64,000 bases of DNA from the NCBI GenBank assembly GCA_014871385.1, contig CM026422.1:23739014-23803013 (forward strand), read 5' to 3'. The notes beneath the pieces are model-generated. The model ran no database searches and was not told where the DNA came from. It worked only from the letters and a program-made list of their open reading frames with translations. Made by a program: the position numbers and the translations under genes. Below, in pieces: positions 14,962 to 64,000 of the stretch (positions are counted from its first letter, which is position 1; every line of letters starts with the position of its first letter). This stretch comes from Ceratodon purpureus (taxonomy: Eukaryota > Streptophyta > Bryopsida > Pseudoditrichales > Ditrichaceae).

Positions 14962-15381
14962 AGGTAGAGGCACCCATAGCCGACTAGGTACCCATAACTA
15001 ATCAGTAGACTTCTCCATTTCCGACCTCATTTCGGACCACTTACTGTTCAAAATCTTAGGAGATCTAAAAGAAAGTATCAAGCATGATTGGTAGAAAGGG
15101 AATCAAAGGGAATCATATGGGAATATTTTGGTAGTAGCAGAGTGATCAAGTTTTGGTGTCATGGTGGTCGGTTTTAGGTGAGCCTACATATCGATTATAT
15201 GTATTACAAAACAAATGTCTTTCAAAATTCATAGTAAATTAAATATTGAAGTAAACATGACATTTAAAGTTGCATTCCTCCTTAATCCTATTTCCTCTTC
15301 AAGGAAAAATCTCCCTCAACTTATACACCTCCAATCTTAGCAACAAATCTCTTAACTGGTGGGTTATAGGTGCCTCCACCT
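14962..15381. mobile_element. MITE, family M1 (copy 1, about 420 bp)
   Basis: The left end AGGTAGAGGCACCCATAGCC is answered at the right end by the inverse of AGGTGGAGGCACCTATAACC (15362-15381), giving inverted repeats of about 20 bp with a few mismatches. TA lies directly outside both ends (14960-14961 and 15382-15383), the Tc1/mariner-type target duplication. An internal block around 15165-15195 (inverse of ATCGATATGTAGGCTCACC) recurs in opposite orientation in the copy at 28238-28637, so these are two members of one family. No coding capacity. A TTAA at 15352-15355, close to the right end, matches the site where the copy near 58.6 kb has been invaded. Confidence 0.8.
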
Positions 15382-28237: not shown

Positions 28238-28637
28238 AGGTAGAAGTACCTATAACTAATAACTTAAGCATTTGGGCATAGCTGCGCTTGTGTTATGAAG
28301 GGGGAGTTATTTTTCGTTGATAGAAACATAAGGTTCCGGAAGACTGAGAATCTCTCATAATTAATTGAGTAAAATTTGAATTACTAAAAATGTTTTTGTG
28401 ATAAAGTGCATCACACCCCATAACCGATATGTAGGTTCACCCATGACGGACAACAACAAGAGTAGTGAACAAACATAAGACTATCTAATTCCAATATAAT
28501 CACAGACGCATTCTATTGGAGGATGCATCTTGAATCTACTATTCATCAATTATCGGCTACTGGTTTTCCATTGTTCTGTAACGAAGAAGCCTACTTATTT
28601 GTGATGGGGGCATTATTGGTTATGGGTACTTCTACCT
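28238..28637. mobile_element. MITE, family M1 (copy 2, about 400 bp)
   Basis: Left end AGGTAGAAGTACCTATAAC; right end the inverse of AGGTAGAAGTACCCATAACC (to 28637). TA flanks both ends (28236-28237 and 28638-28639). It shares its terminal repeats with 14962-15381 and 58612-59874. An internal block near 28422-28450 (ACCGATATGTAGGTTCACC) also occurs in copy 1 in reverse. Non-coding, so presumably mobilised by a Tc1/mariner-type transposase from elsewhere. Confidence 0.8.
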
Positions 28638-29406: not shown

Positions 29407-29411
29407 TTCTA

Positions 29412-29722
29412 TGTTACGACTCCAAGTCGTAACAGCTGGACTGCATGGTGACGAGGCTGGAAGTAGATTCAGCGGTTACATTGAAAGTAGCAGTTACTGA
29501 TAGTTAGGTTCACCATCATCTCTTCGGTTCTGTATAAATCTTCTTCTGCATGAGTCATTCTCATGCAACCTCTTGTAATACAAAGAGTCTGAAGTTCTAC
29601 TTCCTTATGTCCGGGTGAACTTGTTTCCTGTGTCGATTGCCATGCATGTGACTTGGTTTGATTGAGTCCTGAAGCATCGACAGAGAAGCTTAGACTTTGC
29701 AAGTTATAGCTGGTCCGTAACA
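29412..29722 (+). repeat. 5' LTR of the chromovirus
   Basis: 311 bp, TG...CA ends, about 99% identical to 34707-35017. A GTATAAATC TATA-like motif near the middle and a TTGTAATACAAAG stretch after it suggest the promoter and transcript-end signals usual for LTRs. Confidence 0.95.
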
Positions 29723-29830
29723 TTAGGTTGCATCCTTATAATTACTGTCCACGCATTGGGAAGGAACTCGATTCTGTTTTTTTTAAAAACAAGGATTGTG
29801 TTATTCTCGCTTTCTAAGTGAAGTAGACTT

Positions 29831-30934
29831 ATGGAAAGAGAACGGCCAGAGTTGGGAGGAGGGTCGAGGGTACCGGCAGAAATTAGATCTGAATGGACTG
29901 AGTTTATTCAACAGCAAATACAGAGTGTGTTTCAATCTGCACTGCCTCACATGGTACAGCAGATTTCAGAGCGAGCGATAGCACCTCAAGCTTCACCTTC
30001 TACCACAATTCACAATCTTGAACAAGGACAACAGAGACAGGAAAAAGATGATTGGATGGATAGGGAATCGAAAGTAGCTGCGCCGGATAAGTTTGCGGGA
30101 AAGAAAGGTGGGGAAGTATACCGATGGTTTGCCCAGATTCGGTTGGTATTTAGAAGCAAACCTCGAACGTACAGGCATGATGAAGACAAGGTAAGCTATG
30201 CTCTCTCCTACATGAGTGGAGCTGCTCAAAATTGGGCCATGCCACTCTAACAGGCGTTAGATGAAGGGCGACAACGTGAATTATTGACAAATTACAACGC
30301 TTTTCGTGAAGCAGTCATTTCTGTTTATGGAGATTTGGACCGGAGAGGAAATGCAGAAGATCGTCTTGCTAGGATAAAACAGACGGGATCAGTGGCAACA
30401 TATGTTTCGAGTTTCAACGAGCATGCTGCCCAGGTTGATTGGAACGAGCCCAGTTTGGTAGCGAGGTTCCGTGCGGGGCTTAAAGACGAGATTCTTGACT
30501 CCGTGGCAACAGCAGAAACTCAGCCACGAGGATTACAAGATTGGATTGCCATGGCATCTCGAATTGACGAGAGATTGTGGGCGCGACGACAGGCTCGACG
30601 ACCGTCAAGCATGTACTCCAGTGCACACCAAGGTCCCTCTTTAAATCCCAAAACTCAACCTTTTGTCCCCAGAGATCATGCAGGACGTTCTCAAACATTC
30701 AGTGAAGGACCAGGGCCTGTACCGATGGAGCTTGATGCCACTCATGTGAATACTACAGCACTTGCAAAAACTGCTGCAGAACGACTTGATTACCAACGCC
30801 AAGGGCGGTGTTGGGGTTGTGGAGAAATTGGCCATGTTCGTGCTAAATGCCCTGTTAATCCGTCTAAACCTTTATCCTTAGCAGCATTGGAAGTGAGCAA
30901 GGTGGAGTCGGGAAAAGGTCCAACCCAGGACTGA
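29831..30934 (+). pseudogene. gag region of the chromovirus
   Basis: Encodes gag-like sequence ending in a zinc knuckle CWGCGEIGHVRAKC (CCHC spacing). A retrotransposon gag core is visible through VYRWFAQIRL-like and QNWAMPL segments. This part carries about one break, so it is listed as a fossil. Confidence 0.8.
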
Positions 30935-30960
30935 GAAAGAAGGCTCAGTACCCGGGACCT

Positions 30961-33900
30961 TTGGAACTTGCAACATTATTCGTGGTGGAAGGGCCGCAAT
31001 CAAAAATGTACAATCAAAGAAATTTGCAATGTATGACCGAAAACAAGAAGCCAGATCCGTTATATTTAACAGCTACGGTGGATCCAGGGGCGCATTTAAC
31101 TTTATCCGGCCACATCAATTCAATGAAGGCTGAGTTGTTGATAGACTCGGGGGCCACTGGGGTGTTCATGCATCCTGACTTTGCTCAGAGATGTCAAGCT
31201 GTGGTTCGGTTCAAAAGTGTGCCTCGAGAAGTGCGAGTCATCGATGGAAGACTAATCAATTCAGGCCTCATTACACATGAAGCTACGGTTGAGTTGGTTG
31301 TGGCTGACCATAAAGAAAAATTATTGGTGGACCTCACGAACACTGGACGGTATTCCTGCATCTTGGGAACTCCATGGCTCGTCCGCCATGATCCCACAAT
31401 TCTTTGGTCAACGAAACAAGTGAATTTTAATTCATCCTATTGTGAGGCTAATTGCAAGCAATGGGGTGTGAAGGAACAGGCAGAAAAGGTGATTAAAGAC
31501 CTTGCATCAAAGGAGCTCGAGGTTCGGGCTTGTGAATGCAGGCTACAAAGAAAAGGGAACCAAATTCCAAGAAAGGGAATTCAATTGAATCATAAGTTAA
31601 AAGTTAAAGGAATCAGAACTTCTCAGAATAAAATATGTCAATCAATAAAGTTGGCTCCAAAGCATGCTATTGTGTCAGAGGCAGCATTCAAACTTTCTGT
31701 GAAAGGGGCTGAGCTCTACACTTTAGAGATATCTGAAACGAATAGCAATGGGTTGTCAAGCTCAATTCCTACTGAGTACCAAGATCTGGAGAAAGTTTTC
31801 AGTGAGGAATCAGCTAATGAATTACCCAACCATGGACCATCTGACATGAAAATCGAATTTAAAGATGGACAAGAACCTAAGAATACCGGACTACGACCTA
31901 TGTCTCCCACAGAATTAGAAGAACTAAGAAGATATTTGGAAGAGCATTTGGGTAAGGGATGGATTCGTCGATCCAAATCTCCCGTATCAGCCCCTATAGT
32001 TTTTGCCAAGAAAAGGGATGGATCTATAAGGGTGTGTATTGATTATCGAAACCTCAATAAAGTGACCATAAAAAATCGTTATCCTCTTCCACTTATCCCA
32101 GAGTTAACGGACCGATTAGTGGGAGCAAAAATTTTCACAAAATTGGATGTAAGAACAGCATATCATCGTATAAGGATGGCACCGGGCCACGAATATAAGA
32201 CTGCTTTTAAGACCCGTTATGGGTTGTTCGAATACCTAGTAATGCCTTTTGGTCTTACAAACGCTCCAGCACAATTTCAATCTCATATGCAGAGTATCTT
32301 TTCGGATCTATTGGACATTTCAGTTGTCATTTATTTAGATGATATTTTAATATTTTCAAAAAATATGGACGATCATCAAAAAGTAGTACGAGATGTTCTC
32401 CAACGACTTTATGAACATGGGCTCTATGTTAAAGCTTCCAAGTGCCAGTTTCACTGTCAATCAGTGGAATTTTTAGGAATGGTTGTCTCATCACATGGGT
32501 TAGAAATGTGTGCAGATAAAGTACAAATTATTAAAGATTGGCCAATACCGAAAAATTTAAAAGAAGTTCAGTCATTTTTGGGATTCGCAAATTTTTATCG
32601 TCGTTTCATACCCAATTATTCACGTATAGCAATTCCTCTTATAACTTTAACTCGTAAAGATCAACCATTTTATTGGAATTCTGAAGCCGATAATGCTTTT
32701 AATGATCTCCGGGTAAGATTTTGTCGAGCACCAGTATTATTGCATCCAGATTTCGAACGACCCTTCATTATTGAAACTGATGCATCCGATTTTGCTACAG
32801 GCGGAATTCTTTCTCAACATGGCGATGACGGCCATCTACATCCTTGTGCATATAGAAGTTTCAAAATGTCTCCAGCTGAACAAAATTACGACATTTACGA
32901 CAAAGAGCTTTTAAGTATTGTACACGCATTTCAGGATTGGCGTGTTTATTTGGAAGGGTCACCGCATGAGGTGAAGGTTATTTCAGACCATAAAAATCTT
33001 GAATATTTTTTAACTACCAAACACTTAAACCGACGACAAGCGCGTTGGTCAGAATTTTTATCAGCATTTCACTTCGTTATTCAGCATCGACCAGGTTCTA
33101 TGAACATGCGAGCTGATGCTCTATCTAGGCTACCTGGTGTCACTGATCAAGACTTGCAAGAACCAAGACCGTTGTTAAAATTGGCTGCTTTAGAAACTTT
33201 TGAACCAGTTTGGAGGGACGACCAAATCATGGAGCAGATTCGGCTTAAGTCAACCACAGACCCTACAATGCGGCCTATATTAGCATATTTTGAAAATGGA
33301 GCTCACAAGGCCCCATCAGACATTCGTCATCGTTTCCAATCCTATAGCATGAATGAGGGAATTCTGTATTTCCGTGGACTTGTTTTTGTACCAGACGACC
33401 AGGAACTTCGCCGTCAAATTCTCAGATCACGACACGATTCTCCAAGTGCAGGTCATCAAGGTCGTGCTAAAACATTAGATTTGGTAGCAAGAAGGTTTTA
33501 TTGGCCATCACTTCGAGGATATGTCCATCGATACGTCGACGGATGTGATTTATGCCAACGCTCAAAACCTTCTCGACATGCACCGTATGGGTTACTGCAG
33601 CCTATTCCAGCAGCTAACGCACCTTGGAAACGCATTTCAGCAGATTTTATAGTAAAATTACCTCCAAGTAATGGTTATGATGCAATACTAGTAGTGGTGG
33701 ATAAAAACACGAAACTGGCTCATTTCATAGCTACTACGGAGAAAGTTGATTCTATTGGAACTGCAAACCTCTACCTTCATCATGTTTGGAAACACCACGG
33801 TTTACCTGATGAAATCATTTCCGACCGTGGACCGGTTTTTGTTTCTAAATTCACAAGGAGACTTTATGAGCTTTTACGCATTCGACCTTGTTTGACAACG

Positions 33901-34695
33901 GCTTTCCATCCTCAAGCTGACGGCCAGACGGAGCGTGTCAATCAGATTCTCGAACAGTATCTTCGCATGTTCACGACTAGGCAGCAAGATGACTGGGCGG
34001 ATCTCTTGCCAATAGCAGAATTCGCCTATAATAATGCAGTTCACTCAGCCACAGGGCTATCTCCATTTTATGCGACCTATGGATATCACCCCTCTATATC
34101 TTTTGCAACTTCAACAATATCAACAGTCCCAGCTGCGGAGGACAGAATTCGGTATCTCCAATATATCCATGAAGAAATTAAAACTCTACTTCAAATTGCT
34201 GGAGACCAAGCAAAGAGAAAGTATGATAGCACAAAACATTTACATCACGTTTTTAAAGTGGGTGATATGGTGCTGCTTCGCCATGACCATATTTCTTTAT
34301 CAGTTCCATCGAAAAAATTGACATCAAAGTTCTTAGGACCATTCCCGATTATAAGTAAACTCTCTGACGTTGTATATCGCCTAAAGTTACCTAAGACACT
34401 ACGAATTCACGATGTATTTCACATCTCGCTATTAGAAGTATATCGACAGGACACCATTCCCGGGCGAAAACAACAACCACCTCCACCCATTATAACAGCC
34501 GATGGTGAAATTGAGTGGGAAGTGGATAAGGTACTCGCTTCAAGACGGTTTGGACGATGGAGAAAACTACAATATCTTGTTTCATGGACTGGATATGGAT
34601 CGGAACAAAACTCTTGGGAACCTGCCTCAAACTTACAAAATGCCCCTCTTGCAGTAAAGGATTTTCACCGACGTCATCCCACGGCACCCACATAA
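30961..34695 (+). CDS. pol of the chromovirus (PR-RT-RH-INT-chromodomain)
   Basis: A long open frame of about 1244 codons. In order: aspartic protease (LIDSGAT), reverse transcriptase (VCIDYRNLN, LDVRTAYHRI, MPFGLTNAPAQFQ, YLDDILIFS), RNase H (ETDASDFATGG), integrase with an HHCC zinc-binding region (CDLCQRSKP) and a DDE core, then a chromodomain (YLVSWTGYGSEQNSWEP) near the C-terminus. The chromodomain type is thought to steer integration to particular chromatin. It belongs to the element at 29412-35017. Confidence 0.95.
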   Translation: MELATLFVVEGPQSKMYNQRNLQCMTENKKPDPLYLTATVDPGAHLTLSGHINSMKAELLIDSGATGVFMHPDFAQRCQAVVRFKSVPREVRVIDGRLINSGLITHEATVELVVADHKEKLLVDLTNTGRYSCILGTPWLVRHDPTILWSTKQVNFNSSYCEANCKQWGVKEQAEKVIKDLASKELEVRACECRLQRKGNQIPRKGIQLNHKLKVKGIRTSQNKICQSIKLAPKHAIVSEAAFKLSVKGAELYTLEISETNSNGLSSSIPTEYQDLEKVFSEESANELPNHGPSDMKIEFKDGQEPKNTGLRPMSPTELEELRRYLEEHLGKGWIRRSKSPVSAPIVFAKKRDGSIRVCIDYRNLNKVTIKNRYPLPLIPELTDRLVGAKIFTKLDVRTAYHRIRMAPGHEYKTAFKTRYGLFEYLVMPFGLTNAPAQFQSHMQSIFSDLLDISVVIYLDDILIFSKNMDDHQKVVRDVLQRLYEHGLYVKASKCQFHCQSVEFLGMVVSSHGLEMCADKVQIIKDWPIPKNLKEVQSFLGFANFYRRFIPNYSRIAIPLITLTRKDQPFYWNSEADNAFNDLRVRFCRAPVLLHPDFERPFIIETDASDFATGGILSQHGDDGHLHPCAYRSFKMSPAEQNYDIYDKELLSIVHAFQDWRVYLEGSPHEVKVISDHKNLEYFLTTKHLNRRQARWSEFLSAFHFVIQHRPGSMNMRADALSRLPGVTDQDLQEPRPLLKLAALETFEPVWRDDQIMEQIRLKSTTDPTMRPILAYFENGAHKAPSDIRHRFQSYSMNEGILYFRGLVFVPDDQELRRQILRSRHDSPSAGHQGRAKTLDLVARRFYWPSLRGYVHRYVDGCDLCQRSKPSRHAPYGLLQPIPAANAPWKRISADFIVKLPPSNGYDAILVVVDKNTKLAHFIATTEKVDSIGTANLYLHHVWKHHGLPDEIISDRGPVFVSKFTRRLYELLRIRPCLTTAFHPQADGQTERVNQILEQYLRMFTTRQQDDWADLLPIAEFAYNNAVHSATGLSPFYATYGYHPSISFATSTISTVPAAEDRIRYLQYIHEEIKTLLQIAGDQAKRKYDSTKHLHHVFKVGDMVLLRHDHISLSVPSKKLTSKFLGPFPIISKLSDVVYRLKLPKTLRIHDVFHISLLEVYRQDTIPGRKQQPPPPIITADGEIEWEVDKVLASRRFGRWRKLQYLVSWTGYGSEQNSWEPASNLQNAPLAVKDFHRRHPTAPT

Positions 34696-34705
34696 GGAGG
34701 GGGTA
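34694..34705 (+). other. Polypurine tract of the chromovirus
   Basis: A purine run (AAGGAGGGGGTA) immediately before the 3' LTR, the expected plus-strand primer site. Confidence 0.7.
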
Positions 34706-34706
34706 A

Positions 34707-35017
34707 TGTTACGACTCCAAGTCGTAACAGCTGGACTGCATGGTGACGAGGCTGGAAGTAGATTCAGCGGTTACATTGAAAGTAGCAGTTACTGATAGTT
34801 AGGTTCACCATCATCTCTTCGGTTATGTATAAATCTTCTTCTGCATGAGTCATTCTCATGCAACCTCTTGTAATACAAAGAGTCTGAAGGTCTACTTCCT
34901 TATGTCCGGATGAACTTGTTTCCTGTGTCGATTGCCATGCATGTGACTTGGTTTGATTGAGTCCTGAAGCATCGACAGAGAAGCTTAGACTTTGCAAGTT
35001 ATAGCTGGTCCGTAACA
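34707..35017 (+). repeat. 3' LTR of the chromovirus
   Basis: 311 bp, same length and ends as 29412-29722, about three differences. It is followed by the TTCTA target duplication at 35018-35022. Confidence 0.95.
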
Positions 35018-58611: not shown

Positions 58612-59874
58612 AGGTAGAAGCACCCATTTCCAATAGCATCCCCACAACCAACCTGTAGATGTCCCCAAAACCGCAAATTGGCTGTCGGACCACTCAATTT
58701 AAACTAAGTTAAACTGACCAATCAAAAAGCTCAAAAACACTAAAAAAGCTGGTGGTTTTGGGTAAACTCATGAGTGGAAATTAGTACCAACTAGGTGTGA
58801 GAATGGAAAAGTCTACAGATCAGTTTTCGGTCACGAAGTACTTTTATGTTTAAATATTTGTATCTATTTCAATATTGGGAAGAAAATTTTGAAAAAAATT
58901 GCATTCTATGAGAAACCTAATTCTCTACACGTGAAAATAACACCCCAAATATAACCCCGAAAAAAAGGCTCAAAATCCTTAACCCCTAAAGTTCTGAGGG
59001 TATTTTTCATCAAAACTGCCTGAAAACAGCCCCTCTTCAAATCAAGGTGGATTTTGCTAAGTTGGGGTCATAATTAGTACATCTAACCATAAGATCTTGT
59101 AGCTACCTTCTATCTCTACATGTCCACCAAATCTTACACACTCATTCCTCACCAATTGCAAGATCATAACGTTCAAAGTTGAAAATAAAGTTTTTTTTCC
59201 CTGCGCAAAAAAGGATCAGCAAAGTTTTGAAGGCCCAAAAAACCATTTTTTTGCATTATGGATTTTGGCGGTTTTGATGCACATCAAAGAAGACTGAGTT
59301 AGCTATTTGTATTGAAAAAATCATATTCAAAAAAGTTGTGGAAGGTTGCCAAAAAAATCATTTTTTGCTAGGGGGTATACTGAAATTCACAAACAAAGGC
59401 CGTTTTTGGACAATAAAAATAGCATATGAAAACAATTTGGATTAAAAATCCGAACGGTGGGAACATGCTCTACTGCCTTCTTTATACAAAGAAATTTTTA
59501 TTTTTGAAAAATTTCAAAATCTCAATTTTAGGTGGAATTTCAAAGTTTCATCTTTGGGCAGATTTTCGCAGATTTTCGCAATTTTGGGCAGCTTTGGGCA
59601 GTTTTGGGCAGAATTTGCTGCATTCACAGTGGTTCAGCAGCTGCCCTACGAGCAGCGTTTGACACTTAAACCTTCATAACTTTTGATCCTGATGTCGGAA
59701 TTGAAAAATAAAAATACCCACACGAAGATCTCCGAACGGCCCACCTTCAATAAAAATTTCAGAAAATCCCGATGTAAATTGCATTCATAGGTACATGCCC
59801 AAATTCCAAAAAAGCCCAAATGTGGATTATTGTCCTTTAGGGGTTAAGTTGTTGGTTATAGGTGCTTCTACCCC
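58612..59874. mobile_element. MITE, family M1 (copy 3), split by a nested TTAA element
   Basis: The left end GGTAGAAGCACCCAT (58613 on) and right end, the inverse of GGTAGAAGCACCTATAACC (59854-59872), belong to the family of 14962-15381 and 28238-28637. The span is 1263 bp, but removing the inner element with one TTAA (865 bp) leaves about 398 bp, the same size as the other copies (420 and 400 bp). TA occurs close to both ends (58611-58612 and 59875-59876), with a base or two of slippage. A TGTAG...CCCCAAAACCG block near 58650 resembles the internal block of the other two. Confidence 0.75.
58979..59847. mobile_element. TTAA-flanked element, piggyBac-like (copy A, 861 bp)
   Basis: TTAA at 58979-58982 is followed by CCCCTAAAG, and the exact inverse CTTTAGGGG is followed by TTAA at 59844-59847. 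TTAA duplication plus short inverted ends beginning CCC is the signature of the piggyBac superfamily. The element has no transposase-sized frame, so it would be non-autonomous. It contains GCAGATTTTC and TTTGGGCAG micro-repeats (about 59560-59610) and an ATCCGAACGGTG motif (about 59447) shared with 62028-63114. It sits inside the MITE 58612-59874, so it is the younger of the two. Confidence 0.6.
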
Positions 59875-62027: not shown

Positions 62028-63114
62028 TTAACCCCTAAAGCATCAACTCAACACTTTTGGTATGATTTAGGGTCCGGTCAGGCTCCCTATGAGTCAAATT
62101 TTACTGGATGTGGCTGTATTTTTGGCACACCATGGGAAATTGTCATATCTTTCTAACAAGACCAAATTTCACTTTCATCGGGCCCGTAGTTAAGAAATAA
62201 TTCGTGTTTAAAGATCAAAATTCAATTCAGGGCAGTTGGGGCAGGTTTGTGGCCGATGGGAGTGGTGTACCAAATCTATGACAGTCTACAGTGACTTCAA
62301 AATGATCCTTTCTGAAATCGTTTCACAATTTTTTTATTTTAAACTTGAATTTGAGAAATCAAACCGTAGGATCTTGTTCAGAGCCATCCAATTAGTCTAC
62401 GTACCAAGTTTTGTAAAGTTTGACCGTACGGATGTTGAGATATATTTAGTCAAAGTTCCAAGTTCTATACAAACTGTCAGACAGATCTACAGTGATTGGG
62501 TCACCTTCGTCACCCATTTTCCCTTCACCATTTTCTCCTCCTAAACCACTGTAAAATTCATGTCTATTTTTGATTTATTTATTTTTTTGATTTTTTTCCT
62601 CTACAATTTCTTTTCCATACAAATGCATGTATACACCGTTCGGATTTCAAAAAATAGATGAACTTCTTAGGCATTTGTAGTGTGGAAAAAGAGGTAGTGT
62701 ATATGCATTTCATTTGACTCCCGTCACTAGAAGTGTGGTTCTCCAATGCTTCTGTGTGTTGTATTGTCTTAAATTTTTTTGAGCATACTCCCAACTCACT
62801 TTAGAATCCAAAATTGAAGAGCCTCCAACCACACGATCTCAAAAAATTGGCTCTTTCACTCTTTGAAGGGTGGCTGTCTCTGCCGGGCAGGACCAAAAAA
62901 AACTTTTCACTCAAGTTCAGACCTTATGATCTTCCAAACGGTGAAGAGTTACAGTCTAAAATTTTGTGTACACATACATGTATAAGTTAGGTACTAGATC
63001 CTACTGTTAGATTCTCCTATATATGTTTAAATTTGCATAATTCTATCTTGAACTAAAACAGGGTAGATGTGAGGCAGAATTTGGGATTTTATGGCCAAAT
63101 GCTGTAGGGGTTAA
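62028..63114. mobile_element. TTAA-flanked element, piggyBac-like (copy B, 1079 bp)
   Basis: TTAA (62028-62031) then CCCCTAAAGCAT; at the other end the inverse of CCCCTACAGCAT, then TTAA (63111-63114). The inverted ends match at 11 of 12 positions. An AAATCCGAACGGTG motif on the minus strand (about 62634-62648), followed by ACATGC-like sequence, matches copy A at 59444-59470, so the two are relatives in opposite orientation. A CCRTARGATCTTGT motif is also common to both (about 59088 and 62365). No transposase-like frame; the longest, 102 codons (62236-62544), is unrecognised. Confidence 0.55.
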
Positions 63115-63249
63115 TGAGTTTTGATAATCTACTAATTTTTTTTGTAAGGCGTTGGTAGATCCATGTCTGCAGAGAAGATCTTTAGTATCGCTATTACCTT
63201 TAACCTGGACATAACAATAAGTAGCATTTTCTAATGTTGAAACACATCC

Positions 63250-63612
63250 AGATAGATAGATAGAAACACCAGCCCAGTCAGGCCGGCGTGAATAAAGTGT
63301 CCGTTCGTAGTGCCATTGACCCGATGCCCACAGGACAAGGGGACAGTGTGACACAACTACTCTCCCCTTTCGAGGATGGACACTATAGTAACACTATAAC
63401 TACCTAGCCTAGAGCTAAGTACTACCATTACGAAGAACGGACATGTTCTCCACCCCTAGGACATTTTAAAGGGTACCCATACAACAAGGTCAAGAGACCC
63501 CCCACCAAGATTGGGTGGATCAATGGTGGTAAAGCCCCGCGCGGCAGTGGGAATCAAACCCTGGTCATCCCAAAGGGATGCCAAGAGCCTATCCAACACC
63601 ACCCAAAGGCCC
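63250..63612 (-). mobile_element. Candidate tRNA-derived SINE
   Basis: On the minus strand GGTTTGATTCC (63560-63550) matches the RNA polymerase III B box at 10 of 11 positions. A TGGTGTTGGATAGG stretch about 41 bases upstream (near 63601-63588) resembles an A box, and CATCCCTTTGGGATG between them could form an anticodon-stem-like hairpin. About 300 bp further on the sequence ends in a short (TATC)n tract near 63251-63265. This head-body-simple-tail order is that of a tRNA-type SINE. No flanking duplication was found, so the ends are approximate. Confidence 0.4.
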
Positions 63613-63614
63613 TA

Positions 63615-64000
63615 TGATAGTTTAAAGTCATTCCGGACCTAAAAACAAAATCCATTTATAATCACTAAGGCACTAAGGTTTTTCTTTGAATTCTTTACTT
63701 GGCTGAAAATTATCTTTATTGCCTTAACCGGACCTTAATATTTTGTAAAGTTGTTGCTTTTTAAAAGCCAAGGATATCCAATGGATGAGGTCTATTTTTT
63801 TGAAATAATATCCTTGTAGCCTATTGACCAAACATCCTATTAGACCCTAAATGTGGTTTTGAATGGTGTGAAAACATCAATATCCAAGGGTTGCAATGCA
63901 TGACAAATGTGACTTTGCAAGATAACAAAACCTTACCTTGCTTCTTAGACTTGTTTAATGACTTTTATTGTCACATGCCTATTATGCCGATTTAGATCAA
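63615..64000. other. Intergenic DNA to window end
   Basis: AT-rich DNA with no recognisable gene or repeat ends. Confidence 0.4.

Follow-up and report, generated by a model that had tools for sequence, protein, structure and literature searches.

In a 64,000-nucleotide stretch of Ceratodon purpureus DNA, referred to here at its full length as the window, a MITE is interrupted by a sequence bounded on both sides by TTAA, raising the question of whether this insert is a transposon and, if so, what type of transposase moved it. An earlier note had described 861 bp enclosed by TTAA and inverted ends. Examination of the locus confirmed this arrangement at 58979-59847, with the left edge reading TTAA-CCCCTAAAG (58979-58991) and the right edge reading CTTTAGGGG-TTAA (59835-59847). 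The terminal inverted repeats are perfect over 9 bp (CCCCTAAAG), and the insert proper, lying between the two TTAAs, corresponds to 58983-59843 (861 bp). The features of this element, termed E1, are as follows:

58979-59847, plus strand: E1, a probable non-autonomous TTAA element, together with both target copies (assigned from its ends, TTAA and homology to a second element, E2)
58979-58982, no strand: left TTAA target copy
59844-59847, no strand: right TTAA target copy
58983-58991, plus strand: left terminal inverted repeat, CCCCTAAAG
59835-59843, minus strand: right terminal inverted repeat, CTTTAGGGG

Within E1, a degenerate tandem array was also seen at 59549-59626, advancing in 10-bp steps of the TTTGGGCAG type, with six registers being reported.

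The MITE that E1 splits belongs to a family, termed M1, with ends of the type (A)GGTAGARGYACC, strongly diverged interiors and, in two of three copies, TA on both sides. The presence of TA on both sides of M1a and M1b, as read by eye, fits a Tc1/mariner-type MITE. The three copies are:

58613-59873, plus strand: M1c, the host MITE split by E1; 396 bp without the insert and one TTAA
14962-15381, plus strand: M1a, with an unoccupied TTAA at 15352-15355 and TA on both sides; 420 bp
28238-28637, minus strand: M1b, with an unoccupied TTAA at 28264-28267 (minus strand) and TA on both sides; 398 bp

The 21-bp ends of M1c are 86% complementary and, as had been proposed, the emptied MITE matches its relatives in length (396 bp, as compared to 420 and 398 bp). 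Moreover, a single TTAA is found at the homologous place in both of the two M1 relatives. When the emptied M1c was aligned through the junction to M1a and M1b, local scores of 39 and 40 were obtained, respectively, as against maxima of 22 and 16 upon shuffling, with none of 200 shuffles reaching either score. These local alignments reach the right-hand ~200 bp of the MITE, the left half being covered by a looser end-to-end alignment alone. As such, the previously suggested empty paralogous site at 15352-15355 is supported, and that at 28264-28267 in M1b can be added, both relatives aligning across the proposed site. Since a TTAA brought by the element would not be expected in the M1 relatives, its presence there points to TTAA as the target.

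About two kilobases from E1, a second family member that is absent from the earlier note was identified on the basis of its ends, TTAA and interior homology. The features of this element, E2, are:

62028-63114, minus strand: E2, both TTAA copies included, in the orientation opposite to that of E1
62028-62031, no strand: TTAA target copy
63111-63114, no strand: TTAA target copy
62032-62040, plus strand: terminal inverted repeat, CCCCTAAAG
63102-63110, minus strand: terminal inverted repeat with one mismatch, CTGTAGGGG

The E2 insert proper (62032-63110) comprises 1079 bp and presents inverted ends of 12 bp with one mismatch, the agreement between the two ends being CCCCTAMAGCAT. TTAA and CCCC are found at all four ends of E1 and E2. 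Outside TTAA, the flanks of the two elements are unrelated, with 444 of 2000 random 40-bp pairs scoring at least as high as the left flanks and 1692 of 2000 as high as the right flanks; conserved sequence running beyond TTAA was not found at either element. No paralogous empty site for E2 was found in the window. Likewise, no third copy in the window was detected with a two-sequence E1/E2 profile, the next match (E 0.038) falling inside E2 itself and the remaining matches having E values above 2, and the one other copy in the window, E2, is flanked by TTAA. Of the three conditions that the earlier note named as refuting its reading, none was observed in the window. A search of a collection of viral contigs, uninformative on plants, with the motif shared by E1 and E2 yielded 0 matches.

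Several further observations were made in and around E2. The element contains a degenerate inverted internal duplication of ~110 bp (score 23, as compared to a maximum of 16 in 200 shuffles), one arm of which lies ~73-182 from the left end in the E1 orientation and the other, as reverse complement, ~300-405 from the right end. Beyond E2, a possible SINE was noted by eye only at 63240-63620 on the minus strand, in which GGTTTGATTCCC resembles a B box and the tail is of the GATA type; ARAGORN and Rfam (at the gathering threshold) reported nothing in the window. Finally, CCCTAAA is the telomere unit of plants, and a telomeric derivation of the ends was considered and rejected, with this unit, found once in three of the four ends and with a mismatch in the fourth, being treated as coincidence.

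Comparison of the interiors of E1 and E2 revealed an ungapped patch of 72% identity at equal distance from the left end of each:

59081-59198, plus strand: 118-bp patch of E1, 72% identical to E2
62895-63012, minus strand: E2 counterpart of the 118-bp patch

This patch, which corresponds to element positions 103 to 220 in the E1 orientation at the same left-end offset in both, was detected by blastn with E 2e-12 (E1 against the window) and E 4e-14 (E1 and E2 pairwise). A second E1/E2 match of 23 bp, at positions 468-490, is also found at equal offset in both. In total, collinearity extends over ~560 bp, with identity of 72% over the 118 bp and ~47% beyond. The interior local score was 71, as compared to a maximum of 34 in 300 shuffles. 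Across positions 221-560, identity was 47.5% at zero offset, as opposed to 25-35% at 16 other offsets (-8 to +8), while a gapped comparison of the same region with 200 shuffles gave a z of 7.9; for positions 13-102, z was 3.5. In the right parts of the elements, homology was undetectable (positions 491-700: z 0.75; right-half score reached by 37 of 200 shuffles).

E1 and E2 are read as two old sublineages, probably moved by one type of transposase. Because 35 of the 36 terminal bases (nine at each of the four ends) agree and the identity of the alignable interiors falls from 72% to ~47%, divergence of the two lineages probably took place while they were mobile elements, their ends being kept by selection. 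Judging from these two copies, most of the divergence would probably have arisen with both lineages still mobile, since the ends would not have been spared by neutral decay following insertion. Separate insertions of E1 and E2 would have come later, that of E1 occurring into a pre-existing MITE.

The length of the target duplication was considered by seeking repeats of 2-11 bp beside symmetrical ends. Only a 4-bp repeat, TTAA, is present at both loci, in agreement with the earlier view that TTAA is the duplicated target and with the single TTAA of the empty sites. A TTAA duplication describes both insertions (2/2), with a TA reading being less likely. In the latter case, a TA-targeting element of the Tc1/mariner type, with ends ACCCCTAAAG, would have twice landed in a TA found inside TTAA. 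TA elements are common in plants, and the M1 copies M1a and M1b are themselves, as judged by eye, bordered by TA at either end. Plant TA-type MITEs, M1 included, resemble E1 and E2 in having inverted ends and being non-coding (assumed in the case of M1), yet differ in end sequence and in presenting TA beside the ends, where E1 and E2 present TTAA. Given that Tc1/mariner elements duplicate TA (PMC5199201), and that T-TA-A reads TTAA, both loci and both empty sites would fit. However, of the 4033 TA sites counted in the window, only 358 (0.089) are part of a TTAA, such that two of two would be expected by chance at ~0.008. Moreover, the symmetrical CCCC-starting ends match the piggyBac motif. 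This explanation is, as such, considered unlikely.

Another possibility is that E1 and E2 are TTAA elements of a different superfamily, namely, Sola3 or an undescribed plant TTAA transposase, with Kolobok constituting a further TTAA group. Sola3 combines TTAA target duplication with a Sola3 transposase. Sola elements have been reported from plants (PMC9033089), and TTAA targeting is also described for Kolobok (PMC9587614). Kolobok and T2-MITE elements, moreover, share with E1 and E2 the TTAA target and long-lived non-autonomous families. Nonetheless, the T2-MITE of Xenopus is described as having AGGRR ends (PMC6004289) and Kolobok termini as reading 5'-RR...YY-3' (PMC9587614), whereas both E1 and E2 begin 5'-CC and read YY...RR. 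In other words, the TTAA duplication is as in Kolobok, but the ends are CC...GG and thus fit piggyBac and not Kolobok. As for Sola3, no pointers to such an element were found. The probability assigned to this second alternative is accordingly small.

The possibility that E1 is no transposon at all, its inverted repeat having arisen by chance or the whole being a segmental insertion, was addressed by considering how often such ends occur in the window. The sequence TTAACCCCTAMAG has exactly four exact occurrences, all being E1 and E2 ends. When up to two mismatches were allowed, 8 matches were found, as compared to 2.62 expected, a number reached in one of 100 shuffles. Exact 13-bp inverted pairs starting with TTAA and lying at most 2.5 kb apart were observed once, as compared to a mean of 0.05 (maximum 1) in 40 dinucleotide shuffles, such that shuffled windows do on occasion yield such a pair. 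At lengths of 11 bp or more, E1 alone forms an exact TTAA inverted pair within 2.5 kb in the window. At 10 bp, five TTAA inverted pairs were observed, as compared to 2.2 upon shuffling (maximum 5), with two of the five being E1 and E2. This search was systematic for exact pairs, with ten further TTAACC-type or near-match sites being judged by eye. The ends of E1 alone are moderate evidence; the homologous second copy, E2, is strong evidence. It is the existence of E2, which lies at an unrelated site and carries TTAA, ends that match those of E1 and an interior homologous to it, that largely refutes the chance reading of E1, while the two M1 relatives that align through the empty site also argue against a chance repeat. 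This explanation is, therefore, very improbable.

Least plausible of all is an element of the PIF/Harbinger, hAT or Mutator type, the usual plant groups. hAT elements generate an 8-bp duplication and Mutator-like elements one of 9 to 11 bp, and a repeat of 5 to 11 bp fits neither locus; as only 4 bp fits both, hAT and Mutator are removed. The PIF/Harbinger duplication is 3 bp, TAA or TTA (PMC10004981), both contained in TTAA, with ~30% of the TTA sites in the window lying inside TTAA, such that two of two would be expected at 0.09 under a TTA target. Still, symmetrical ends leave unequal 3-bp flanks (TAA and TTA) at both loci, and so PIF/Harbinger is also removed unless the ends are asymmetrical, as a 3-bp target reading requires.

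Considering these alternatives, E1 and E2, two copies in one window that make up the whole case, are likely to belong to a single family of TTAA-targeting, non-autonomous DNA transposons of the cut-and-paste type, with piggyBac being the most likely source of their movement. Membership in the piggyBac superfamily is the best fit, as judged from ends and target. The superfamily has been described as relying on TTAA, with ends of 12-19 bp and a CC[C/T]T motif (PMC2872659); ends of 4-24 bp have also been reported, a large number of elements opening with CCC (PMC10813416). Here, all four terminal inverted repeats begin CCCC and hence CCC. Relative to 12-19 bp, the inverted repeats of E1 are perfect over 9 bp and those of E2 extend over 12 bp with one mismatch. 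The fourth end base is C, where the usual piggyBac motif has T, although one coral family is described as beginning CCCCT (PMC2872659).

In Pfam searches of 12 frames of E1 and E2, no family was matched at E values up to 1 (10 frames) or 0.01 (2 frames), as expected for a non-autonomous element. Nor was a transposase or autonomous copy found when Pfam was applied to these 12 frames and to 8 other ORF stretches of the window. Of what had been claimed earlier, the designation as a non-autonomous DNA element is supported. The piggyBac identity holds insofar as the TTAA target and CCC ends fit it best, but the transposase expected behind that label, a DDD enzyme of the Pfam family DDE_Tnp_1_7, was not found.

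The piggyBac element of Trichoplusia ni has an end, CCCTAGAAAG, that is similar to CCCCTAAAG. It has the TTAA target and CCC start in common with E1 and E2 but differs in its transposase, not found in E1 or E2 (Pfam, 12 frames). The coral CMITEs, described as piggyBac-type MITEs (PMC2872659), likewise combine a TTAA duplication, CCC-starting ends and a non-coding interior, with CMITE family III beginning CCCCT, comparable to the CCCC start seen here. At the same time, E1 and E2 exceed the ~100-bp CMITEs about eight- to tenfold in length and have diverged interiors, whereas those of CMITEs are described as well conserved (PMC2872659).

Should E1 and E2 indeed be piggyBac-type elements, a TTAA-specific transposase would have mobilized them in trans, in the manner of piggyBac. 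Such an enzyme, encoded elsewhere and most likely of the piggyBac superfamily, would recognize the CCCCTAAAG ends, excise the element and join it to TTAA, after which the four target bases would be duplicated. Precise excision that leaves one TTAA behind is a hallmark of the superfamily. In piggyBac, excision has been described as involving a hairpin and a TTAA overhang (PMC7351741).

Of the same 8 ORF stretches of the window, two were matched by Pfam to ankyrin/PGG, one to a glutaredoxin, one to a TPR protein and one to an ATPase fold, two are parts of a Gypsy element with a chromodomain, and the eighth is extensin-like at E 0.007, below Pfam's own cut-off. This content resembles that of plant nuclear DNA, probably from a land plant. 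The ATPase-fold ORF is read here as mismatch-repair-type, the Pfam match being to the ATPase fold. The Gypsy retrotransposon with a chromodomain at 29411-35005 presents two 300-bp direct repeats at its edges, 5295 bp apart; their 99% identity makes it likely that the element inserted recently. The integrase may resemble those of non-angiosperm chromoviruses.

The earlier statement that piggyBac is seldom found in land plants, or has gone unreported there, proved too strong, with reviews and a fern annotation naming PiggyBac. PiggyBac is given as one of seven angiosperm MITE superfamilies (PMC10004981), is included among plant class II superfamilies (PMC10794571), is listed among the superfamilies present in all taxonomic groups studied, land plants included (PMC4438587, Table 2), and is credited with 1230 copies in the fern Ceratopteris (PMC6890710). 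Reviews are, however, at odds on this point, with the count of six plant TIR superfamilies in PMC9033089 leaving out the PiggyBac that PMC10004981 and PMC10794571 include. The TTAA/PiggyBac kind is thus already known in plants but thinly documented. Among the titles and abstract openings listed in literature searches by words rather than by sequence, no description of the E1/E2 family was noticed.

These findings may bear on how such elements are sought in plants. Kinship of the degree seen between E1 and E2 would escape the 80% identity threshold for MITE families used in an insect survey (PMC5199201). It is conceivable, if doubtful, that the two copies represent an old and long-lived plant TTAA lineage, with near-constant ends and interiors almost past alignment, served by a plant piggyBac-type or undescribed transposase that standard repeat annotation has missed. 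With its two copies, its clear ends and a pair of empty sites, the family offers a concrete handle for finding a plant TTAA transposase or for failing to do so.
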